This document shows, piece by piece, positions 22,926 to 36,367 of a stretch of 64,000 bases of DNA (the stretch's first letter is position 1; each line of letters begins with the position of its first letter). Both the position numbers and the translations under genes were made by a program. A model generated the notes under the pieces. The model did not search any database. It was not told where the DNA came from and worked only from the letters and a program-made list of their open reading frames with translations. The stretch comes from an uncultured Pelagibacteraceae bacterium (lineage in GTDB: Bacteria; Pseudomonadota; Alphaproteobacteria; Pelagibacterales; Pelagibacteraceae). The stretch spans positions 1-64,000 of the forward strand of contig CACLSS010000001.1 in the NCBI GenBank assembly GCA_902609645.1, read 5' to 3'.

Positions 22926-23025
22926 TTAGGAACTAATTTCTCTAACAATTAGTACCAAATTTTCAAATTAAGGAAAATTAAAAATTATTTGTATTTTTTT
23001 ACCCTGCGTGTTAATCAACACAATA

Positions 23026-24168
23026 ATGTCATTTAAAGAGCTACCTCTAATGGAACCTAAAGACGGAACAGTGCTCTTTTATCCATATATTTCAAAATCG
23101 TCCTTTGCCGAGGTTAAAAAGGTCCTATCTGGAAGGTGGATTGGACAAGGACCTTTAGTTAACAAATTTGAGAAAAAATTTAAAAATATGTTTGCTGGTA
23201 AAAATCACTGTATAGCTACTGGATCAGGCACAGACGCACTTCATCTGGCATATATTCTCGCAGGACTTAAAAAGGGTGATGAGGTTATAGCACCAGTTTA
23301 TACATGCACTGCTACTAACATTCCTTTTTTATATATGGGTGTAAATATTAAATTTGCAGACATTGATATTGAAACGATGAACATTAGTGTAGACAGTGTC
23401 AAAAAACTTTTAACAAAAAAAACTAAAGCTATAATTTGTATGCATTACGGTGGCCTACCTTGTGATTTAAATGAGTTACAAGTATTAGCAAATAAATATA
23501 AAATTCCACTTATTGAGGATGCAGCCCATGCTATCGGAGCTACTTATAAAAAAAAATCAATTGGAAGCATAAGTGATTTTACAATGTTTAGCTTTCAAGC
23601 AATTAAGCATATTACTACTGGGGATGGTGGAATGCTCTGTTTTAAAAATAAAAAGTTAATTGAAAAGGCAAAAAGAATTCGTTGGTTTGGAATAAGTAGA
23701 GAAGATAAACAAAAGGGAATTTGGGAAAATGATATTTCGGAAGTAGGCTATAAATATCAGATGACAGATCTTGGTGCATCCCTTGGTTATACAGCCTTAA
23801 AAGAATTTCAAAAATTACTAAGTCATAGACAAAAAATTTTTAAAATTTATAAAGATATTCTCTCAAGAAATCCCAATATTTTTTGTGTAGACAAAAATGA
23901 TGGTAATAGAACCCATGCGTCATGGCTATTCACTCTATTATCTGAAGAAAAGGATAGAATACAAAAAAGACTAAGAGAAAAAAAAATAGAGTCTAATCAA
24001 GTACATTTCAGAAACGATAAGTACTCAATATTTAAAAAGTTTGTAAGAGGTAAATCTTTTCCAAACATGGATTACGTCGAAGATAAATATCTAGTTTTGC
24101 CTAATCACCACAAAATTAGTGAAAATAAAGCAAAGTATATTGCTCAAACAATTGATAATTTATTATAA
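23026..24168 (+). CDS. DegT/DnrJ/EryC1 sugar aminotransferase
   Basis: ATGSGTDALHLAYILAGLKKGDEV, FSFQAIKHITTGDGGML (PLP Lys present); start at 23026. Confidence 0.9.
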   Translation: MSFKELPLMEPKDGTVLFYPYISKSSFAEVKKVLSGRWIGQGPLVNKFEKKFKNMFAGKNHCIATGSGTDALHLAYILAGLKKGDEVIAPVYTCTATNIPFLYMGVNIKFADIDIETMNISVDSVKKLLTKKTKAIICMHYGGLPCDLNELQVLANKYKIPLIEDAAHAIGATYKKKSIGSISDFTMFSFQAIKHITTGDGGMLCFKNKKLIEKAKRIRWFGISREDKQKGIWENDISEVGYKYQMTDLGASLGYTALKEFQKLLSHRQKIFKIYKDILSRNPNIFCVDKNDGNRTHASWLFTLLSEEKDRIQKRLREKKIESNQVHFRNDKYSIFKKFVRGKSFPNMDYVEDKYLVLPNHHKISENKAKYIAQTIDNLL

Positions 24169-24275: not shown

Positions 24276-25484
24276 ATGAAAAAAAAAATATTAATAATCT
24301 TTAAAGCCCCTTGGCATTGGAATAATTTTGTCATAAACAAGTTTAAAAAATCTTACGAAGTAAAATATATTTTTCTAAACAAGATTAAAAAAAATTTTTT
24401 ACAAACTATAGATGAAATAAACAATTTAATTGATAAAGACAAAATCGAAATAGTTATCTTCGACGTTGACTATCAAAAGTTTATCAATCACTACTTTATA
24501 AAAAAAATAAAAAGTACATTTAAAATTATGATGACCTGGGATGATTATGAAAGACATAATTTCAATATAATTACAGCAAACTCTTGTAATTTTGTTATTA
24601 CCGGATGTCCACTTTCAACATTTAAATATAAGGAAGTGGGTAAAGAAGCTTCATTTAATGTTTTAGAGTCTGATGGAAATTTTTATAAAGATTTAAAAGT
24701 AAAAAAAAATATTGATGTTCTTTTCTTTGGTAAAGTTAATAAAGACAGGGAAGGTTTCTTAGATTATTTAAGAGAAAACAACATTAATTTAAAAGTTGTT
24801 GGAAATAATTCGGAGAATAAGGTTTCTGATAAAGAACTTGTAAATTTAATTTGTAGATCAAAAATAGTGGTAAATTTTTCTAAAACAACATGGGGAAAAA
24901 TAATGAATATTCCTGAAAAAAATGTCTTTTCGTATCAATATATGTTTAAGGGAAGAATTGTTCAGGCGGGTCTATGTGGGACTGCCTGTATTTCAGAGTA
25001 TGCCCCTCATCATGATTTACTTTATAAGAGTGATGAGCTAATTCAATTTTCAACAAAAGAGGAGTGTTTTAATGCTATAATCGATTTATTAGAAAACCCA
25101 AATAAACTTGAGCATTATCAAAAAAAATTTTCAGAGAAAACAATAGGTAGTTATGAGGACGAAAAAACTCTTAAAAATTTGAAGAATTTTATTCAAAATT
25201 TTAATTTGAGTAGAAAAAATGAAGATAAACATAAATTGAACAGATTACCCTACTGGTATATAAGAATTTGTGCAAAGCAGATTATTCTTAGAGACTTAAA
25301 ATTTTATAAAATTTTAAATTCATTAGTTCATTTGAAAGAAATATTTAAATTAATAAAAGGATCTAATATTCTCGTAAAACTCTCAGTTATTCTAGAGACT
25401 TTAATTAATATTTTATGGTTTTCAACAATTAGACTTTTTAGTGAAAAGGGTGTAGGAAAAAACAGGTATGCAGGCAAATATTAG
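24276..25484 (+). CDS. Glycosyltransferase-like protein (GT1/CgeB-like C-terminal)
   Basis: VLFFGKVNKDREGFLDYL..., AGLCGTACISEYAPHHDLLYKSDELIQF; start MKKKILII 3 nt after tRNA (ORF-track start 24246 lies inside the tRNA). Confidence 0.65.
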   Translation: MKKKILIIFKAPWHWNNFVINKFKKSYEVKYIFLNKIKKNFLQTIDEINNLIDKDKIEIVIFDVDYQKFINHYFIKKIKSTFKIMMTWDDYERHNFNIITANSCNFVITGCPLSTFKYKEVGKEASFNVLESDGNFYKDLKVKKNIDVLFFGKVNKDREGFLDYLRENNINLKVVGNNSENKVSDKELVNLICRSKIVVNFSKTTWGKIMNIPEKNVFSYQYMFKGRIVQAGLCGTACISEYAPHHDLLYKSDELIQFSTKEECFNAIIDLLENPNKLEHYQKKFSEKTIGSYEDEKTLKNLKNFIQNFNLSRKNEDKHKLNRLPYWYIRICAKQIILRDLKFYKILNSLVHLKEIFKLIKGSNILVKLSVILETLINILWFSTIRLFSEKGVGKNRYAGKY

Positions 25485-27168
25485 AGTCGCAGATTTTATT
25501 GCTTCTTTTTTGAAAAAAAAGGGAATCAAAAATATATTTATGTTAACAGGATATGGAGCAATGTATTTAAATGATGCAATAAAATTATCGGGAATTAAAT
25601 ATTATGCTACAAGAAACGAGGCAACTGCCCCAATAATGGCAGAGTCTTATGCAAGATTAAAAAATAAAGTTGGAGTCGCTTGTGTTACGGCAGGACCAGG
25701 AGCAACCAATGCTTTACCTGGCCTCGCAGAAGCATATGTTGACTCTGCACCGATCATGGTTATATCTGGACAAGTTGATTACAAACAAACAACTCACAGC
25801 ACTAAATTAAAAAATATAAGAACATTCGGAACTGCGGAAATCAACATTATTCCAATTGTGAGGCCGCTAACTAAATATGCTGAAATTATTAAACATCCAA
25901 ATGATGTTAAATATGTGCTTGAAAAAGCATTTTTCCTCGCAAAAAATGGAAGGCCAGGACCTGTTTGGATTGATGTTCCTTTGGATGTTCAAAAGAAAGA
26001 AATTAATATAAAAAACTTAAAATCTTTTAAACCAGAGGAAAAAAAAATATTTTTACCGAATATAAATAGAGATGTTAAAAAAATTGTAAACCTTCTTAAA
26101 AGAGCAAAAAAACCAATTTTTGTGGCTGGGAATGGAGTAAAACAAAGTGGAACAATTAAGATACTAAAAAAAATAATTACTAAATGCAAAACTCCTATAT
26201 TGCTTTCTAGATTTGCAAACGATCTTTTACCTCACACTGACAAATTTGTTATGGGTCAAGCGGGAGTAAAAGGATCCAGATATTGCAAAAGCATAATGCG
26301 TAATGCAGACTTAGTCATATCATTAGGATGTAGATTTGCTCCTCAATTTGTTGGTCATGATTTTTCAGCTTTTAAAAACGCAAAGATAGTCTCGGTTGAT
26401 GTTGAAAAAGATGAATTAAATAAAAAAGGGGTAAAAGCAAATTATAGATTCAATTATGACTTAAAAAACTTTTTACCGATTTTAAATAAAATGACAAAAA
26501 TTTCAAAATTTCCTAGTTACAATAGTTGGATTAATTTTTGCTTAAATAACAAAAAAAATAAACCAATTATTCCTGAAAAATTAAAACAAAAAAATCCAAT
26601 TGATTTATATTTTTTTATGCAAAAACTTGGAAAAATTGCAAAAAAAAATGATATTTTAGTAACAGACGCTGGGTCAAATTATTATATCGGTGGACAAGTC
26701 TGGTCTTTTGAAAAAGGAACAAAGGAAATCACTTCAGTATCCAATGCAGCTATGGGTCTTTCTGTTCCTCTAGCAATTGGAGCAGCAGTTGCAGCTCCAA
26801 GATCTAGAATTTTAGCAGTGACAGGTGATGGATCACTAGAATTAAATATTCAGGAACTCAAAACAATTTCTCACAACAAGTTTAATATTAAATTGTTTGT
26901 TATAAACAATGGTGGTTACGTATCTATGCATAATTGGGCAGATACCTTTTTCAAAGGTAGAAGACTAGATAATCCAGAAGACACTGGAACAGGCACACTT
27001 AATTTTAAAAATGTCGCAAAAGCATTTGATTTAAACCATTATTTAATACATAACTTTAAAGAAATAGATAACGACTTAAGAAAAATAATGAAAAACAACA
27101 AACCTCTTTTTATTGAAGTTGTTACAGATCCTAGACAAAAGATATATGATGCTTTTAAAGATTATTAA
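25468..27168 (+). CDS. TPP-dependent acetolactate synthase-like enzyme (YerE-like candidate)
   Basis: RNEATAPIMAESYARL..TAGPGATNALPGLAEAY; TPP motif GDGSLELNIQELKTISHNKFNIKLFVINNGGY. Confidence 0.88.
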   Translation: MQANIRVADFIASFLKKKGIKNIFMLTGYGAMYLNDAIKLSGIKYYATRNEATAPIMAESYARLKNKVGVACVTAGPGATNALPGLAEAYVDSAPIMVISGQVDYKQTTHSTKLKNIRTFGTAEINIIPIVRPLTKYAEIIKHPNDVKYVLEKAFFLAKNGRPGPVWIDVPLDVQKKEINIKNLKSFKPEEKKIFLPNINRDVKKIVNLLKRAKKPIFVAGNGVKQSGTIKILKKIITKCKTPILLSRFANDLLPHTDKFVMGQAGVKGSRYCKSIMRNADLVISLGCRFAPQFVGHDFSAFKNAKIVSVDVEKDELNKKGVKANYRFNYDLKNFLPILNKMTKISKFPSYNSWINFCLNNKKNKPIIPEKLKQKNPIDLYFFMQKLGKIAKKNDILVTDAGSNYYIGGQVWSFEKGTKEITSVSNAAMGLSVPLAIGAAVAAPRSRILAVTGDGSLELNIQELKTISHNKFNIKLFVINNGGYVSMHNWADTFFKGRRLDNPEDTGTGTLNFKNVAKAFDLNHYLIHNFKEIDNDLRKIMKNNKPLFIEVVTDPRQKIYDAFKDY

Positions 27169-27173
27169 TTTTC

Positions 27174-28694
27174 ATGAGCCTAGATATTTTATTTATTCAC
27201 CCAAACGCATCTAAAAAAATTTATCAAGAACTCAGCAAAGATCATTCTGCATATGAACCACCCATATGGGCAGGAATGTTAGCGAACCACTGTAGGTCCA
27301 AAAATTTTAAAACAGCAATTTTGGATTGCGAAGTTAATAAACTAGATTATGAAAAAAGTGCCAAAGAAATAAATAATCTTAAACCGAAAATTGCCTGTTT
27401 CGTAGTCTATGGGCAACAACCCTCAGCTTCATCTCAAAATATGGAAGGAGCTACAAAAACCTCTATTGAATTAAAAAAATTAAACAATAAAATTAAAACT
27501 TTATTTGTTGGAGGCCATGTTGCTGCCTTACCTAAAGAAACTTTACTGAAAGAATCTAGCATTGATTTCGTTGCATTGAATGAAGGCGTATACTCAATAT
27601 CTAATTTATTAAGTGCTGATAATTTAAATGAAGAAAGTTATCTAAAAAAAATAAAAGGAATAGGTTTTAGAAATAATGAAAACCAAATTATTTTAAACGA
27701 ACCAGAAACAGTTGTTCCAAAAAAACTTTTAGAAAATGATTTACCAGGTATAGCTTGGGATTTGTTACCTAACTTATCCGAATATAGAACTGCAGGATGG
27801 CATTCTTGGTCAAATAATTCCGATAAACAACCATTCGCAGCTTTATATACAAGTCTGGGGTGTCCATATAAATGTTCATTTTGTATGATTAATATAATTA
27901 ATAGAACTAATAATGATGAGAACGTTTCATCTCAAAACTCAAATATTTTTAGATGGTGGTCACCAGAATTTATAATTAAACAGTTCGATTATATTGCAAA
28001 GCAAGGTGTTAAAAATATTAAAATTGCAGATGAACTTTTTGTGCTAAATCCAAATCATTTTATGAAGATATGTGATTTATTAATTGAACGAAATTATGGT
28101 TTTAATATTTGGGCTTATTCAAGAATTGATACTTGTAAGCCGCAATATTTAGAAAAATTAAAAAAAGCCGGAGTTAATTGGCTAGGTCTTGGAATAGAAA
28201 ATCCAGACACCGTTTTAAGAAAAGAAGTTCATAAAGACTCATATAAAGAAGTTAAAATCATAGATGTTATAAATGGCATTAGAGACTCTGGAATAAATGT
28301 CGCTGCTAACTATATTTTTGGCTTACCAGAGGATACAGAAAAAAGTTTAAAATTTACATATGACTTTGCTGAAGAAACAAATTCAGAGATGGTAAACTTT
28401 TATTCTGCAATGGCATATCCTGGTAGTCCTCTTTTTTTAGAGGCCCGAAAAAATAGAATTGAACTTCCATCAACCTATTCAGGATACAGTCAACACTCAT
28501 ACGATACACTAAATTTGTCAACCACAAAACTTTCTGCTGGTCAGATACTTAAATTTAGAGATGAAGCTTGGATGAAATACCATACTAATGAGAAATATTT
28601 AAATTTAATAAAAGAAAAATTTGGTCAAAACGCAGTAGATAATATTAAAAGCACAACTCGAATTAAACTAAAAAGAAAATTACTGGGAGACTAA
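27174..28694 (+). CDS. Radical SAM protein with N-terminal B12-binding-like domain
   Basis: N-term Rossmann 'DILFIHPN..LFVGGHVAALPKETL..DFVALNEG', rSAM cluster CPYKCSFCM. Confidence 0.88.
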   Translation: MSLDILFIHPNASKKIYQELSKDHSAYEPPIWAGMLANHCRSKNFKTAILDCEVNKLDYEKSAKEINNLKPKIACFVVYGQQPSASSQNMEGATKTSIELKKLNNKIKTLFVGGHVAALPKETLLKESSIDFVALNEGVYSISNLLSADNLNEESYLKKIKGIGFRNNENQIILNEPETVVPKKLLENDLPGIAWDLLPNLSEYRTAGWHSWSNNSDKQPFAALYTSLGCPYKCSFCMINIINRTNNDENVSSQNSNIFRWWSPEFIIKQFDYIAKQGVKNIKIADELFVLNPNHFMKICDLLIERNYGFNIWAYSRIDTCKPQYLEKLKKAGVNWLGLGIENPDTVLRKEVHKDSYKEVKIIDVINGIRDSGINVAANYIFGLPEDTEKSLKFTYDFAEETNSEMVNFYSAMAYPGSPLFLEARKNRIELPSTYSGYSQHSYDTLNLSTTKLSAGQILKFRDEAWMKYHTNEKYLNLIKEKFGQNAVDNIKSTTRIKLKRKLLGD

Positions 28695-28695
28695 A

Positions 28696-29535
28696 TTGTC
28701 ATACAAAAATTATCGTTTAAAAATATTTGAAAAGGCTTCTCTGTGCAGAAATTTTGAAAATGAGGTTTTTAAAAGAGTAAATGAAAAACTTATCAATTTT
28801 CCAGTTTATCTATCAGCTGGACAAGAATATGTTCCATCATCAATAGCGCAGATAGTAAAAGATAAAAAACAAAAACCTCTTATCTTTGGCCAGCATAGAG
28901 GACATTCAATATATCTTTCTTTTGGAGGAAATATTATAGAACTAATTGACGAACTTTTAGGAAAAAAAACCGGATGTACACGAGGTATGGGCGGATCATT
29001 ATCAATAAATTCAAACAAAATTAACATGTTTGGTCATGAGGGATTAATGGGAAGTAATGCATGTATGGGTGTTGGAGCATGTTTTTCATCGGCAAAACCT
29101 ACTATCGTCTTCTTAGGTGATGCATCTGTTGAGGAAGACTATGTTTTAGCCTCTTTAAGTTGGGCAGCTAAAAAGGAATTACCTATACTTTTTGTAGTCG
29201 AGGATAATAATTATGCTGTATTAACCAAAAAGAAGGACAGAAGAGATTGGAAAGCAAAAGACGTAGCAAAAGCATTTAAATTAGAGTCTTACGATATTGA
29301 TGACCAACCCAAAAAAATTTTTTCAGTACTAAAAAAAAACTTATTTAAAAAACCAATTTTTATAAATGTAAATACAAAGAGACTTTTCTGGCATTCGGGT
29401 GCTGGTGTAGATGAAGAAGTAAAAGGAGATAGATTAACAATAGAAAAAAAATTTTTAGGAAAAAAAGCAGATAAAATTCACAGAAATATTAAAAAAAAGA
29501 TTGAAAATTTATGGAAACAACGCTTAGAGAAGTAA
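28696..29535 (+). CDS. TPP-dependent dehydrogenase E1 alpha-like protein (pair 1), TTG start
   Basis: GQHRGHSIYLSFGG, GCTRGMGGS, FLGDASVEEDYVLASLSWAAKKELPILFVVEDNNYAV. Confidence 0.88.
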   Translation: MSYKNYRLKIFEKASLCRNFENEVFKRVNEKLINFPVYLSAGQEYVPSSIAQIVKDKKQKPLIFGQHRGHSIYLSFGGNIIELIDELLGKKTGCTRGMGGSLSINSNKINMFGHEGLMGSNACMGVGACFSSAKPTIVFLGDASVEEDYVLASLSWAAKKELPILFVVEDNNYAVLTKKKDRRDWKAKDVAKAFKLESYDIDDQPKKIFSVLKKNLFKKPIFINVNTKRLFWHSGAGVDEEVKGDRLTIEKKFLGKKADKIHRNIKKKIENLWKQRLEK

Positions 29536-30428
29536 TAAAACAAATAACTTTTAAGCATTTAAAAAAATTTAAAGGTCAGGTTTTTGGGCAAAACCTAACA
29601 GGTGTTGGTTGGGTAGCTGGAACCTTACCAAAACTTTATGAAAAAGATGGTGTGATAGAGTTACCAATGGCTGACGTTGCTAACGGTGGAATGGTTACTG
29701 GTGCAGCATTAGTTGGGAGGAGACCATTCTATATAATAAGATATCAAGGATATAACTGGTTAAATTGTATTTTTATTGTTAATTACGCATGTAAGTCTAA
29801 AGAAATTTGGAACAAGCCCGCACCAATGTTTATAAGAGGCCTCTCAAGTGAAGGTGGCTTAGGTCCAGTTTCTACATCAAGCCATATATCAATCTTCTAC
29901 AAAATGCCAGGGATCAAAATTTATTCTCCGATGACTAAAAATGAATACACTAGCACTTATAAAAAATTTATGAAGTCAGATGATGTTTTTTATGTTTCAG
30001 AACATAGAAAAAGTTATGAAAATAAAATAGAGTTCAAAAATTCTTTAAAAAAGAATCTTGATATAATTTTAATGCCAATATCAGTAACTCGTTTCGAGGC
30101 AGAAAAAGCAAAAAATTATTTAAATAAAAACGGTTATAAGGTTGGAATAATTCATTTATATGAATTAAAACCCTTTGTCTTGAAAAAAAAATGGATAAGC
30201 ATGATCAAAAGTTCTAAATATGGTGTTCTTATGACTGATAATGATTATGTTGATGGTATAATTAGAACTTTAGCTCATAAAATAAATGAGCAGACCAATA
30301 AAAAAGTTAATGTTTTGGGATTAAAAGATAAGTCTGCGGGGTATACACTTAAGACAAGTAATTTTCCGCCATCAGCTTTGGAAATAATAAATAAAATTAA
30401 AAAAATAAAAGCAAAAAAAAGATTATAA
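29511..30428 (+). CDS. TPP-dependent E1 beta/transketolase C-half-like protein (pair 1)
   Basis: VIELPMADVANGGMVTGAALVGRRPF, C-terminal transketolase_C-like part; overlaps alpha gene. Confidence 0.85.
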   Translation: METTLREVIKQITFKHLKKFKGQVFGQNLTGVGWVAGTLPKLYEKDGVIELPMADVANGGMVTGAALVGRRPFYIIRYQGYNWLNCIFIVNYACKSKEIWNKPAPMFIRGLSSEGGLGPVSTSSHISIFYKMPGIKIYSPMTKNEYTSTYKKFMKSDDVFYVSEHRKSYENKIEFKNSLKKNLDIILMPISVTRFEAEKAKNYLNKNGYKVGIIHLYELKPFVLKKKWISMIKSSKYGVLMTDNDYVDGIIRTLAHKINEQTNKKVNVLGLKDKSAGYTLKTSNFPPSALEIINKIKKIKAKKRL

Positions 30429-30429
30429 A

Positions 30430-31032
30430 ATGAATAAAAAGGATTTAATAAACTTTGAGGAGGAAATTGCATCTTTATTTAATAAAGGTAAAATAAGAGC
30501 TCCAGTTCATCTTTATCAAGGTAATGAAGATAAAATAATAGAAATTTTTAAAAAAATTAACAAGCAAGATTGGGTTTTTTGTAGTTGGAGATCACATTAT
30601 CAATGTCTTCTTAAAGGGGTTCCAAAAGAGGAAGTGAAAGACGAAATTTTATCAGGAAGATCTATATCTTTGTGTTTTCCTGAGTACAAAATATACTCAT
30701 CAGCATTAGTCGGAGGTTCTATTCCTATAGCAGTAGGTACAGCAATGTCTTTGAAGCTTAGAAAAGAAAAAAGTACAATGGTTTATTGTTTTATGGGAGA
30801 GATGACATCTGAAACAGGTATAGCCCATGAGTGTATAAAATACAGTAGAAATTTTGATTTACCAATTCATTTTGTTATAGAGGATAATTCATTGTCTGTT
30901 TGCACAGATACTAGAAAAACATGGCAGCAAAAAAAGTTAAGTTTTGAGGGTCCTAATGATAAATTTATAACTTTTTACAGCTATAAGTCTAAGTGGCCAC
31001 ATGCTGGTGCGGGGAAAAGAATAGAATTTTAA
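30430..31032 (+). CDS. TPP-dependent E1 alpha-like protein (pair 2), short
   Basis: CSWRSHYQCLLKGV, VGGSIPIAVGTAMSLKL, FMGEMTSETGIAHECIKYSRNFDLPIHFVIEDNSLSV. Confidence 0.82.
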   Translation: MNKKDLINFEEEIASLFNKGKIRAPVHLYQGNEDKIIEIFKKINKQDWVFCSWRSHYQCLLKGVPKEEVKDEILSGRSISLCFPEYKIYSSALVGGSIPIAVGTAMSLKLRKEKSTMVYCFMGEMTSETGIAHECIKYSRNFDLPIHFVIEDNSLSVCTDTRKTWQQKKLSFEGPNDKFITFYSYKSKWPHAGAGKRIEF

Positions 31033-31035
31033 TTT

Positions 31036-31572
31036 ATGAAATACGCCGATGAATTAACTAAATCAATGATTTATCTGAGTAAAGATCCAAGAACTATATT
31101 CCTTGGACAAGCAGTTGCATACCCAGGCACTGCAATGACAAACACTTTGAAAAGTATACCAAAAAATAAACTTTATGAATTACCTGTTGCAGAAGAAATG
31201 CAGTTAGGAATAAGCAATGGATTAGCTTTAAACGGACATATTCCTGTAAGTATATTTCCAAGATGGAATTTTCTTTTACTTGCTACTAATCAGTTGGTGA
31301 GCCATTTGGATAAATTTAGTATAATGTCAAAAGGCAAATTTAAAACTAAAGTAATTATAAGAACATCAATTGGTTCACAAAGGCCTTTACATCCTCAACA
31401 CCAACACATTGGAGACTTTACCGAAGCATTTAAAAAAGTTTTAAGAACAGTAGAAATCATTAGACTTGAGGAACCATCAGATATATTTCCATCATACAAA
31501 AAAGCAATTGAGAGGAAAGATGGGAAAAGCACAATTCTAGTTGAGTATGGAGATTATTATAGCGAAAAGTAA
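31036..31572 (+). CDS. Transketolase pyrimidine-binding-domain-like protein (pair 2), lacks C-terminal domain
   Basis: TIFLGQAVAYPGTAM..KLYELPVAEEMQLGISNGLALNGHIPV, only 178 aa. Confidence 0.82.
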   Translation: MKYADELTKSMIYLSKDPRTIFLGQAVAYPGTAMTNTLKSIPKNKLYELPVAEEMQLGISNGLALNGHIPVSIFPRWNFLLLATNQLVSHLDKFSIMSKGKFKTKVIIRTSIGSQRPLHPQHQHIGDFTEAFKKVLRTVEIIRLEEPSDIFPSYKKAIERKDGKSTILVEYGDYYSEK

Positions 31573-31575
31573 AAC

Positions 31576-32571
31576 ATGATTATTACAAAAACACCGTATC
31601 GAATATCATTTTTTGGAGGCGGTAGTGATTATCCCTCATGGTATAAAAAAAATGGAGGTGCTGTATTATCTTCTACAATTGATAAGCATATTTATATTAC
31701 TTGTCGTTTCTCACCAGGTTATTTTAAACAAAAATATAGAATAGTATGGAGAAAAATTGAGAATGTAAAAAATATTAATGAAATAAATCACAAAGCTGTA
31801 AGATATCTACTAAAACATCTAAATATTAAAGAAGGATTAGAAATTCATTATTATGGTGATTTACCTGCAAGAAGCGGAATGGGTTCTAGTTCATCTTTTA
31901 CTGTTGGACTGATGCAGGCTTTATGGAAAATTAAAAATATTAAATTAACTAGAGCTGAGTTAGCAAAAAAAAGTATTAATTTTGAACAAAATATAATGAG
32001 AGAAGTGGTGGGCTCACAAGATCAGACCTCAGCTTCTTATGGTGGTTTTAATAAGATTCTATTTAATAAAAATAATTCCATCAATGTTAAAAGAGTTTCT
32101 TCAAAAAAAAATATTAAAAAATTAAATGATAATCTTATTTTAATTTACACAGGCATTAATAGAACTGCCCATAAAATAGCAAATCAATATGTAAGTAAAC
32201 TTACAACAGTTAAGAAAGAACACATTAGTAAAATTTTAGATTACGTTAAAGAAGGTGAACGTATTCTAAAATATGGTAATATTGATGATTTTGGAAGACT
32301 TTTAAATGATGCTTGGATGGAAAAAAAGGCTCTTAGTAGTTTAATTACAAATCCAAAAATAAATGATATTTATGATGATGCAATTAAATGTGGAGCTCTA
32401 GGAGGTAAATTGTTGGGTGCTGGCGGTGGTGGTTTTTTACTAATGTACATGAGACATGACGAAAGAAAAAAATTTTTTAAAAAAAATTACAAATTAATTA
32501 ATATCCCATTTAAATTCACATCAACAGGAAGTGAAATAATTTTTGATCAATTAAAAAAGGATAAAAAATGA
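31576..32571 (+). CDS. GHMP kinase, D-glycero-alpha-D-manno-heptose 7-phosphate kinase-like
   Basis: KTPYRISFFGGGSDYPSWY, LPARSGMGSSSSFTVGL, LLGAGGGGFLL (HddA-like). Confidence 0.87.
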   Translation: MIITKTPYRISFFGGGSDYPSWYKKNGGAVLSSTIDKHIYITCRFSPGYFKQKYRIVWRKIENVKNINEINHKAVRYLLKHLNIKEGLEIHYYGDLPARSGMGSSSSFTVGLMQALWKIKNIKLTRAELAKKSINFEQNIMREVVGSQDQTSASYGGFNKILFNKNNSINVKRVSSKKNIKKLNDNLILIYTGINRTAHKIANQYVSKLTTVKKEHISKILDYVKEGERILKYGNIDDFGRLLNDAWMEKKALSSLITNPKINDIYDDAIKCGALGGKLLGAGGGGFLLMYMRHDERKKFFKKNYKLINIPFKFTSTGSEIIFDQLKKDKK

Positions 32572-33752
32572 AGATTAATCATCCACTAATGCACAATAAT
32601 TTTATTAAATCCGATATGGACTCTGTTAGAAAATTAATTAAAAAAAAGGATTTAATTCTTACACAATCAAGGAATGTTATTGAGTTTGAAAAAAAATGGT
32701 CAAAATGGCTTGGTGTAAAATTTAGTGTTTTTGTTAACTCTGGATCTTCAGCTAACTTATTAAGTATGTTAATATTAAAAAGTTTATCTTTAAAAAAGAA
32801 AGAGATTATTATTCCTACATTAACTTGGGTTTCAGATATAAATTCAGTAATAATGGCAGGTTTTAAACCTGTATTCGTCGATATTGATCCAAGAACACTT
32901 TCTATGAATCAAGACCAAGTTTTGAATAAAATAAATAAAAATACACTTGCTGTTTTTGTAACACACGTACAAGGATTTAATGGTTTGTCAGAAAAACTTT
33001 TAAAAAAAATTAAAAAAAAAAAGATTATTCTTGTAGAAGATGTGTGTGAGTCACATGGAGCTAAATATAAAGCCAAAAAATTAGGGACATTTGGCTTAAT
33101 ATCCAACTTTTCTTTTTATTATGCTCATCATATGTCTACTATTGAAGGCGGAATGATCTGCACAAACAATAAAAAAATTTATGAATTGGCAAGAATTTTT
33201 AGATCTCACGGTATGGCACGAGAGGCAAAAAATAAGAAATTTGAAAAGCAAATGATAAAAAAATATCCGAAATTATCTCCCCAATTTATTTTTTTACATC
33301 CAACTTTTAATTTTAGAAATAATGAAATTGGAGCTGTAATTGGTATAAACCAACTCAAAAGACTCGATAAAAATAATAGGGCAAGAACAAAAAATTTAAA
33401 ACTTTTCTTAAATTTATTAGACCCATCTAAGTATAGAGTTGATTATAAAGTCGATGGTAGTTCGAATTACGCATTTCCAGTTGTTTTTAAAAACAAAAGT
33501 TTTAAGTTTAGAGATCGTTTTGAGTTGACATTAAAAAGATATAATATTGAATTTAGAAGAGGAAATGCTGGTGGTGGCAATCAGCTTAGACAACCATATT
33601 TAAAAACTTACTTGAAGAAAATTAATTTAAAGAAATTTCCAGAAGTTGATCATGTTCATTTCTTTGGGTATTATATTGGGAACTATCCAAGTTTAAAGGC
33701 ATCTAGAATAAAAAAAATTTGTTCAATATTAAATAATATAAATCTTAAATAA
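32568..33752 (+). CDS. DegT-fold PLP enzyme of ColD/DdhC (sugar 3-dehydratase) type
   Basis: SGSSANLLSMLIL; FSFYYAHHMSTIEGGM has His where aminotransferases have the PLP Lys. Confidence 0.8.
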   Translation: MKINHPLMHNNFIKSDMDSVRKLIKKKDLILTQSRNVIEFEKKWSKWLGVKFSVFVNSGSSANLLSMLILKSLSLKKKEIIIPTLTWVSDINSVIMAGFKPVFVDIDPRTLSMNQDQVLNKINKNTLAVFVTHVQGFNGLSEKLLKKIKKKKIILVEDVCESHGAKYKAKKLGTFGLISNFSFYYAHHMSTIEGGMICTNNKKIYELARIFRSHGMAREAKNKKFEKQMIKKYPKLSPQFIFLHPTFNFRNNEIGAVIGINQLKRLDKNNRARTKNLKLFLNLLDPSKYRVDYKVDGSSNYAFPVVFKNKSFKFRDRFELTLKRYNIEFRRGNAGGGNQLRQPYLKTYLKKINLKKFPEVDHVHFFGYYIGNYPSLKASRIKKICSILNNINLK

Positions 33753-33757
33753 AATAA

Positions 33758-34246
33758 ATGGAGAAATTAAAAGTAATAAAAAATTCAACCTTTAAAGATA
33801 ACAGAGGTTTTTATTGGACTACATGGAAAAAAGGAACACTTAAAAATTTTAAATTTAACCATGATAAATTTTCCATATCGAAAAAAAAAGTTCTAAGAGG
33901 TCTCCATTGCGATTTTAAATCATGGAAATTAGTAACATGTACATTTGGTAAAGTTTTTTTAGTTGTTGTAAATATGAAAAAAAATTCAAAAAGTTATTTA
34001 AAACATAAAACCTGGATTTTAACTCATGAAAAACCTACGTTAATTTTAATCCCACCCCATTTTGCTAACGCATATTTATGTTTGTCTAATAAATGCGTTT
34101 TTCACTATAAATGGTCTTATAAGGGTAAATATGTGGACTCAAATAAACAAAATAGTTACAGATGGAACGACCCAAAATTAAAAATTAAATGGCCTATAAA
34201 AAAACCATTATTAAGTAAAAGGGATAGAACTTCGAAGTATTTATAA
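33758..34246 (+). CDS. RmlC-like NDP-sugar 3,5-epimerase family protein
   Basis: DNRGFYWT, KKVLRGLHCDF, IPPHFANAYLCLS, YRWNDPKL. Confidence 0.82.
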   Translation: MEKLKVIKNSTFKDNRGFYWTTWKKGTLKNFKFNHDKFSISKKKVLRGLHCDFKSWKLVTCTFGKVFLVVVNMKKNSKSYLKHKTWILTHEKPTLILIPPHFANAYLCLSNKCVFHYKWSYKGKYVDSNKQNSYRWNDPKLKIKWPIKKPLLSKRDRTSKYL

Positions 34247-34247
34247 A

Positions 34248-35183
34248 ATGAGTAAAATTTTAATAACTGGTGGAGCAGGATATGTTGGATCAATGCTATC
34301 TACAGCTCTTGTTAATTTAGGCCATGAAGTAACGGTTTTAGATTTGATGAAATATGATAGAGGATCATTAAATCATCTTTATTATTTTAAAAATTTTAAA
34401 TTAATAAAAAAAGATGTTCGAGATAAAAAATTATTAAAATCTTTACTAAAAAAAAATGAATTTATAATACCATTAGCTGCGTTAGTAGGCGCTCCTTTAT
34501 GTGATAAATACAAGAAAGATGCCGTATCAGTAAATCACCATTCAATTAAAAATCTTGTATCTTTGAGTTCAAAAAAAAATAAAATAATATTTTTAACTAC
34601 TAATTCTGGATATGGAGTTGGAGAAAAAAATAAGTTTTGTGACGAAAATAGTCCATTAAACCCAATATCACTTTACGGCAGAACAAAATGCGACGCAGAG
34701 GAAGAGGTAAAAAAATCTAAAAATTTTATTTGCTTCAGATTAGCTACAGTTTTTGGATACAGTTATAGAATGAGAACAGATTTATTAGTAAATAACTTTG
34801 TTTATAAATCAGTAAAAACAAAAAAATTAAAAATTTTTGAACCTCATTTTAGAAGAAATTTTATCCATATTAAGGATGTAGTTTTAGGAATAATTTATGC
34901 TATAAAAAATTTTAATAAATTAAAATCAAATATTTATAATTTGGGACTTTCATCTGCAAACATAAGTAAACTTATGTTAGCAAAAAAAATAAAGAAAAAA
35001 ATGAATAAACTTCAAATTAAAATTATTACAAACAGAAAGGATCCAGATAAAAGAGATTATTTTGTAAGTAATAAAAAAATAGAAAAAAAAGGTTTCAAAG
35101 CAAAAGTATCTTTAGATCAAGGTGTTGAAGAATTAATTGATTTATTCAATACGGATAATAAAAAAATAATAAATAATTATTAA
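34248..35183 (+). CDS. NAD-dependent sugar epimerase/dehydratase (SDR)
   Basis: ITGGAGYVGSML; YGRTK active-site motif. Confidence 0.88.
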   Translation: MSKILITGGAGYVGSMLSTALVNLGHEVTVLDLMKYDRGSLNHLYYFKNFKLIKKDVRDKKLLKSLLKKNEFIIPLAALVGAPLCDKYKKDAVSVNHHSIKNLVSLSSKKNKIIFLTTNSGYGVGEKNKFCDENSPLNPISLYGRTKCDAEEEVKKSKNFICFRLATVFGYSYRMRTDLLVNNFVYKSVKTKKLKIFEPHFRRNFIHIKDVVLGIIYAIKNFNKLKSNIYNLGLSSANISKLMLAKKIKKKMNKLQIKIITNRKDPDKRDYFVSNKKIEKKGFKAKVSLDQGVEELIDLFNTDNKKIINNY

Positions 35184-36367
35184 TTTTTTTTGGTAATTCT
35201 TTTTATTTGACTATAAAAATTCTTTTCTGCGAATTCAAAATATAATTTACTTTTATTAGCACAAATTTTATCAGAATCTTTATCTCCGATCATAAAACTT
35301 TTATTATGTTTTATGTGCCATTTTTTTTTAATTTGCTGTATCATCAGATTTCCTGGTTTTCTTAATTCAGTAACTTTTCTATATTTTCTTAACTTAGCTT
35401 TGGGATGATATGGACAATAATTTATATCATCAAAATATATATCTTTTTTTTGAAGCTTGTCTTTAATCTGATTTTGTAATTTATAAAACTCATTTATAGA
35501 AAAAATACCTTTTCCAATTCCAGCTTGGTTAGTGATAATAAAAATGTAATATTTTTTTTTAATTAATAGCTTTAATCCCTTGATAACACCAGGTCTAAAT
35601 TTAAAGTCCTTAAATTTGTGAACATATCCAGTGTCATAATTTATAACACCATCTCTATCTAAGAATGCTGCTGGTTTTGAACAATTGTTAATTAACAAGT
35701 TTCCTGCTCTTTTAAAGTTTTTTGGCGTCCCAATATCTAAAAAAAAATTATTAGTTATAAGTCCCGAAATTTTTTTTTCACTGATTAAATTAGGTAAAAT
35801 TTCATCTTCTAAAGAAATGTTTTTATTTTGGATAAATTTAAAGAACTCCTTTTTAAAAAAATATACTCCACCATTCATATATTTGCTAAATTTTTGAAAA
35901 ACAATTTTATTATGCTTAAGCCCTATAGCTGATAATTTTTTGTTAGACTTATATGATTTATTTTTTACCAATGCTAAAGATCCTAAGCTATCTTTGCTAC
36001 ATGATTTAATTAATTTATTTAAATCAACATCAAGAAAAGTGTCTCCATTTATCAAAATAAAATCGTTTAAATTTTTTTTCTTTAAGGTGTTTAAGGCGCC
36101 CGCCGTACCCATCGGTTTTTTTTCATTAAGACAATTTATAGATATGCAATTATAATAACTTTTGTGAAATTTGTTAATTATCTCCTGCGATTTATATCCT
36201 GTTAGTACAAAAATATTTTTAAAGTGATATTTACAGTAATTTTGTATTATATATTCTAAGAATGGTTTTTTGTTAAAAATAGCCATTGGCTTAGCTTTCT
36301 TATTCAAAAGCGATTTAATCCTAGATCCTTTACCTCCAGCTAAAACAACTAAATCTAATGAGTACAT
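35180..36367 (-). CDS. Fusion: HddC-like sugar nucleotidyltransferase + GmhB-like HAD phosphatase
   Basis: N-term LVVLAGGKGSRIKSLLNKKAKPMA; C-term FLDRDGVINYDTGYVHKFKDFKFRPGV..ITNQAGIGKG..CPYHP..MIGDKDSD. Confidence 0.9.
   Translation of the reverse strand: MYSLDLVVLAGGKGSRIKSLLNKKAKPMAIFNKKPFLEYIIQNYCKYHFKNIFVLTGYKSQEIINKFHKSYYNCISINCLNEKKPMGTAGALNTLKKKNLNDFILINGDTFLDVDLNKLIKSCSKDSLGSLALVKNKSYKSNKKLSAIGLKHNKIVFQKFSKYMNGGVYFFKKEFFKFIQNKNISLEDEILPNLISEKKISGLITNNFFLDIGTPKNFKRAGNLLINNCSKPAAFLDRDGVINYDTGYVHKFKDFKFRPGVIKGLKLLIKKKYYIFIITNQAGIGKGIFSINEFYKLQNQIKDKLQKKDIYFDDINYCPYHPKAKLRKYRKVTELRKPGNLMIQQIKKKWHIKHNKSFMIGDKDSDKICANKSKLYFEFAEKNFYSQIKRITKKN

Follow-up and report, generated by a model that had tools for sequence, protein, structure and literature searches.

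Campylobacter jejuni makes GDP-4-keto-heptose with Cj1427, a GDP-heptose 4-dehydrogenase. Combined in vitro with the C3-dehydratase of C. jejuni HS:5, Cj1427 yields GDP-D-glycero-3-deoxy-4-keto-heptose, a pairing presented by its authors as a novel combination (PMC10680097). Mechanistic precedents for such 3-dehydratases are available for the C. jejuni heptose enzyme (PMC10440746) and for ColD, in which glutamate serves to restore PMP and no reductase is involved; E1 and SpnQ, by contrast, depend on an electron donor (PMC8987622). Branching of keto sugars is an established activity of thiamine diphosphate (ThDP) enzymes of the YerE-like and E1-alpha/beta types (PMC12247030), JanthE being one of the YerE-like enzymes (PMC12188165).

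The window, i.e. the whole 64,000-nucleotide stretch of DNA analysed here, belongs to an uncultured Pelagibacteraceae bacterium and encodes a His-type DegT-fold protein, P0001. SAR11 bacteria are among the most abundant in the sea; their surface sugars are little known, and the genes for them are situated in a highly variable region. We consider P0001 to be probably (at roughly 0.72) a GDP-4-keto-D-glycero-heptose 3-dehydratase, PLP/PMP-dependent and ColD-like, which makes GDP-3-deoxy-4-keto-heptose. The genes discussed below are the following:

25468..27168, + strand: ThDP enzyme of acetolactate-synthase fold, not the housekeeping IlvB; best PDB match JanthE (YerE-like)
27174..28694, + strand: B12-binding radical SAM protein
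28696..30428 (28696-29535, 29511-30428), + strand: ThDP E1-alpha/E1-beta pair 1, candidate carboligase
30430..31572 (30430-31032, 31036-31572), + strand: short ThDP E1-alpha/E1-beta pair 2, which recurs in relatives
31576..32571, + strand: HddA-like heptose 7-phosphate kinase (GHMP), directly upstream of P0001; NCBIfam HddA 138 bits, cut-off 600
32568..33752, + strand: P0001, His-type DegT-fold protein, predicted GDP-4-keto-heptose 3-dehydratase (PLP/PMP, ColD-like)
33758..34246, + strand: RmlC-fold epimerase, closest to C. jejuni GDP-4-keto-D-lyxo-heptose 3(,5)-epimerases (138 bits to 8dcl/7ani)
34248..35183, + strand: Cj1427-like SDR, the gene after next from P0001 (298 bits, E 5.6e-88, to 6vo6/6vo8)
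35180..36367, − strand: fused HddC-like guanylyltransferase and GmhB-like phosphatase (GmhB 130 bits, HddC 105 bits, both below the cut-offs)

Active site and class of P0001

The open reading frame of P0001 runs from ATG to stop and encodes 394 amino acids; it shares its first 4 bases with the end of the upstream kinase gene, and the downstream gene begins 6 bases past it. The protein matches Pfam DegT_DnrJ_EryC1 with 214 bits, and the PLP-binding Lys of DegT/DnrJ/EryC1 sugar aminotransferases is absent from it. Its active-site motif is SNFSFYYAHHMSTIEGGM; in FSFYYAHHMSTIEGGM, residue 187 (codon 33126-33128) is the leading His of the 'HH' pair. The first-pass annotation had placed this His at the position of the internal-aldimine Lys, and the His substitution is seen directly in the alignment: His187 stands opposite residue 188 of ColD, exactly the letter changed in the ColD mutants H188N (PDB 3b8x) and H188K, and the other DegT protein of the window (23008-24168) carries Lys at this position (FSFQAIKHITT). 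Together with Asp158 and Cys160, His187 is invariant across 27 aligned relatives. All family members examined retain it, at identities as low as 51% inside the clade and approximately 33% beyond it, and we therefore do not regard it as a product of chance. A Lys elsewhere occupying the PLP site was looked for as well; the only invariant Lys in the P0001 clade is K170, which true ColD shares, and no substitute PLP Lys was found there. A SAR11 subfamily with His-Gln (SHQISSGEGG) rather than His-His was also observed (L023-L026, L028, L029, L031, L033 and L034).

In an IQ-TREE tree of 55 proteins, all 46 His-type sequences split from all nine Lys-type ones with support of 100/99. P0001 falls on the dehydratase (His-type) side and not among the aminotransferases (Lys-type), in agreement with the earlier proposal of a deoxygenase rather than an aminotransferase. 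RfbH/DdhC, the ColD group and a SAR11 clade with P0001 form distinct His-type groups (100/100 each), P0001 lying outside the ColD clade. Because of this separate SAR11 clade and the approximately 30% identity to ColD, P0001 is, by its sequence, ColD-like and not ColD. The predicted (not solved) structure points in the same direction: in the AlphaFold model (pLDDT 93), the DegT/aspartate-aminotransferase fold is closest to ColD, the top 12 Foldseek matches all being ColD chains (TM 0.86-0.90); PseC and perosamine synthase come next in the ranking, and E1 stands lower.

The same results bear on the idea that P0001 is a sugar 4-aminotransferase in which His for Lys leaves the outcome unaltered, the PMP amino group being transferred to a 4-keto sugar. 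The fold family is common to both kinds of enzyme, and the His-type SpnQ transaminates when it is without its reductase; ColD and E1, however, showed no transamination in similar conditions (PMC8987622 for all three). With the tree and the fold both favouring ColD, we judge an aminotransferase very improbable.

Among the [2Fe-2S] cysteines 193, 251, 253 and 261 (Salmonella RfbH numbering), P0001 has only the first, as has ColD; the absence of the equivalents of DdhC Cys251, Cys253 and Cys261 is again read directly from the alignment. With three of the four iron–sulfur cysteines missing, there should be no need for a DdhD-like reductase, and a ColD-type mechanism without such a partner is expected for P0001. 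The ColD/DdhC signature claimed earlier therefore stands for the ColD type and falls for the DdhC type. That P0001 is a DdhC/E1-type dehydratase requiring an iron–sulfur reductase could be argued from RfbH being its highest-scoring curated NCBIfam model, yet the 189 bits are far under the cut-off of 423, RfbH forms a 100/100 clade of its own and three cluster cysteines are lacking, which makes this reading exceedingly unlikely.

Heptose genes and the proposed substrate

Homologues of HddA, HddC, GmhB and Cj1427 are all found in the P0001 gene cluster, and a GmhA-like gene is located on contig C15 of the same genome; the HddA, HddC and GmhB assignments are best matches scoring under the curated cut-offs. 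The best PDB match of the HddA-like kinase is a D-glycero-D-manno-heptose kinase (3k85, 5e-35), and the HddC-like and GmhB-like parts, fused as one 395-aa protein, match 3l8e, 2gmw and 5xhw. The next PDB match of the Cj1427-like SDR has 66 bits. The RmlC-fold protein reaches 78 bits to 7pvi and 67 bits to the first dTDP-RmlC (S. enterica type), so that the GDP-4-keto-heptose epimerases (138 bits) score far above any dTDP-rhamnose RmlC (78 and below).

As the operon holds HddA, HddC-GmhB, a Cj1427-like gene and an epimerase of the GDP-4-keto-heptose type, GDP-4-keto-heptose is the probable substrate of P0001. The GDP-linked 4-keto sugar that had been suggested from the adjacent heptose genes is now better grounded, by the Cj1427-like gene and the HddA/HddC/GmhB homologues. 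While the gene linkage is seen directly, the exact substrate, the reaction and the later steps are what we infer. C4 would be oxidised by the Cj1427-like dehydrogenase, PMP would be formed in P0001 from glutamate, and the C4 ketone would be bound as a ketimine; His187 would then take a proton from the cofactor while the C3 hydroxyl leaves, and hydrolysis would give GDP-D-glycero-3-deoxy-4-keto-heptose and ammonia, after which C5 is probably epimerised by the RmlC-like protein. Cj1427-type and 3-dehydratase activities thus appear to be encoded together in a SAR11 operon.

The arrangement was followed through a sample of 297 genomes of the order Pelagibacterales. At every P0001-clade locus tested, the relative of P0001 (58-96% identity) has HddA nearby, in most cases together with Cj1427-like and HddC-GmhB genes; the recurring set consists of HddA, ColD-like, Cj1427-like and HddC-GmhB genes. 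A close Cj1427-like gene is present in 21 of the 297 genomes and in 10 of the 11 with the P0001 clade (hypergeometric 3e-12, uncorrected for kinship, shared ancestry making this p optimistic); in the eleventh, G280, the P0001-clade copy is on a 5.8-kb contig. A second His lineage, grouping with ColD, is independently clustered with Cj1427-like and HddA genes at L053, L105, L106 and L107.

Alternatively, P0001 could be a ColD-like 3-dehydratase of a GDP-4-keto-6-deoxy-hexose (or 6-deoxy-heptose) made elsewhere in the genome, the heptose genes serving another sugar. Characterised ColD acts on GDP-4-keto-6-deoxymannose (PMC8987622). Several points weigh against a heptose substrate. Given the low identity of P0001 to ColD and its separate clade, specificity is not transferable to it; the heptose 3-dehydratases of C. 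jejuni share 62-67% identity with ColD and form a group to which P0001 does not belong; and at L113-L115 the stretch read contains Cj1427-like and heptose genes without one of the His type. Nor is the wider family, as far as gene context indicates, restricted to heptoses: the subclade that is sister to P0001 (51-55% identity) adjoins a GDP-mannose 4,6-dehydratase homologue, 51-53% identity, at L050, L051, L073, L074 and L075 (L050 and L073 are one locus). However, the 7 kb around the P0001-clade loci showed no gmd-type gene, the clade's companions being HddA and the Cj1427-like gene, and the sole clear 4,6-dehydratase of the window is dTDP-specific by model; we therefore regard a 6-deoxy substrate as unlikely and retain GDP-4-keto-heptose. 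In the compact cluster of the sister subclade the His-type gene is followed by RmlC-like and GDP-mannose 4,6-dehydratase genes and then by transketolase halves or an acetolactate-synthase-fold enzyme. The enzyme making the 4-ketone is thus swapped and the 3-dehydratase and RmlC-like protein are kept, as expected if the His enzyme acts on a 4-ketone.

More distant relatives were also encountered. A His-type gene of cyanophages (37% identity; L100 5971-7164 of Synechococcus phage ACG-2014f), mostly annotated as a hypothetical protein, adjoins GDP-mannose 4,6-dehydratase and SDR genes.

Thiamine diphosphate genes and the fate of the 4-ketone

The ThDP protein at 25468-27168 scores 279 bits with 8rph versus 233 with AHAS, and the genome has a separate IlvB on contig C10; in a tree, the protein stands apart from housekeeping AHAS (99/99) and may group with JanthE. 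Pair 2 (200 + 178 aa) is very short, and the standard GDG..NN motif was not found there. In many relatives, the B12-binding radical SAM gene directly precedes a ThDP pair (E1 or transketolase halves).

At least one ThDP enzyme gene lies within 7 kb at 18 of 18 P0001-clade loci, versus 3 of 20 control loci centred on other DegT genes and drawn almost entirely from the same genomes. The associated p = 4e-8 is a guide only, as the queries came largely from P0001 loci and related loci are non-independent; L064 was anchored on the adjacent gene of its cluster, one of the Lys type, and the count is unaffected by this. The ThDP types vary between loci and include acetolactate-synthase-fold enzymes, E1-alpha/beta pairs and transketolase halves.

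A GDP-fucose-synthase query had no match in the draft genome of this organism (G000), nor was a WcaG-type C4-reductase found in it, an absence that is weak evidence at 82% completeness; a SAR11 C4-reductase-like query retrieved only its RmlB gene (45 bits), with matches of at least 80 bits in five other genomes. We do not claim that ThDP enzymes strictly take the place of the C4-reductase, because G278, G094, G052 and G207 contain the two kinds of enzyme, and several loci likewise combine a C4-reductase-like gene with ThDP genes. The case for a ThDP link that is particular to the dehydratase is likewise weakened by L113-L115, where ThDP pairs occur near Cj1427-like genes and the stretch read has no gene of the His type.

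The constant presence of ThDP genes at P0001-clade loci, the JanthE match and the lack of a detected C4-reductase in the draft genome suggest that the 4-ketone may be used for C–C bond formation, and the keto-sugar may be C-branched in a yersiniose-like manner. As a tentative and on balance doubtful extension, SAR11 might make C4-branched 3-deoxy-heptoses, the 4-ketone formed by the Cj1427-like enzyme and deoxygenated by P0001 being attacked by an interchangeable ThDP carboligase, which could be YerE-like, an E1-alpha/beta enzyme or a split transketolase, with one dehydratase scaffold feeding many branched surface sugars.

On an Azospirillum ramasamyi plasmid (L098), a His-type DegT gene directly follows ThDP E1-alpha/beta genes and is close to mtaP and mtnA, the pair flanking the SAR11 variable region.

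Comparison with known systems

If the main prediction is true, the P0001 locus would give 3-deoxy-heptose a natural origin; in the open literature searched, this sugar was found only as an enzymatic laboratory product. The locus would also raise the question of GDP-heptoses as further targets of thiamine-dependent sugar branching. The prediction names a substrate, a product and a short list of enzymes, and is testable in vitro by published methods.

With E. coli ColD (PDB 2gms), the GDP-4-keto-6-deoxy-D-mannose 3-dehydratase, P0001 shares the fold, the replacement of the PLP Lys by His, a conserved Glu-Asp and Cys-Glu-Ser motif and the lack of an iron–sulfur cysteine set. The surroundings differ: ColD is encoded near gmd and a GDP-fucose-synthase-like reductase, P0001 near heptose and Cj1427-like genes. 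The C3-dehydratase of C. jejuni HS:5/HS:11 (PMC10440746) resembles P0001 in its predicted chemistry on GDP-4-keto-heptose, but that enzyme is near ColD (62-67%) and works on a 6-deoxy substrate, whereas the P0001 operon lacks a GDP-type 4,6-dehydratase and, through the Cj1427-like enzyme, would leave the 6-hydroxyl in place. In the in vitro route to GDP-3-deoxy-heptose (PMC10680097), the two steps and their order are those predicted for the P0001 operon; that route is a laboratory mixture from different serotypes, while in SAR11 both genes are in one operon. Like the yersiniose pathway (YerE), the SAR11 locus combines a His-type 3-dehydratase with a ThDP enzyme encoded nearby, for which JanthE is the best solved match; the yersiniose route acts on a CDP-hexose, whereas the SAR11 locus is predicted to use a GDP-heptose and has several ThDP enzyme types alternating between loci.
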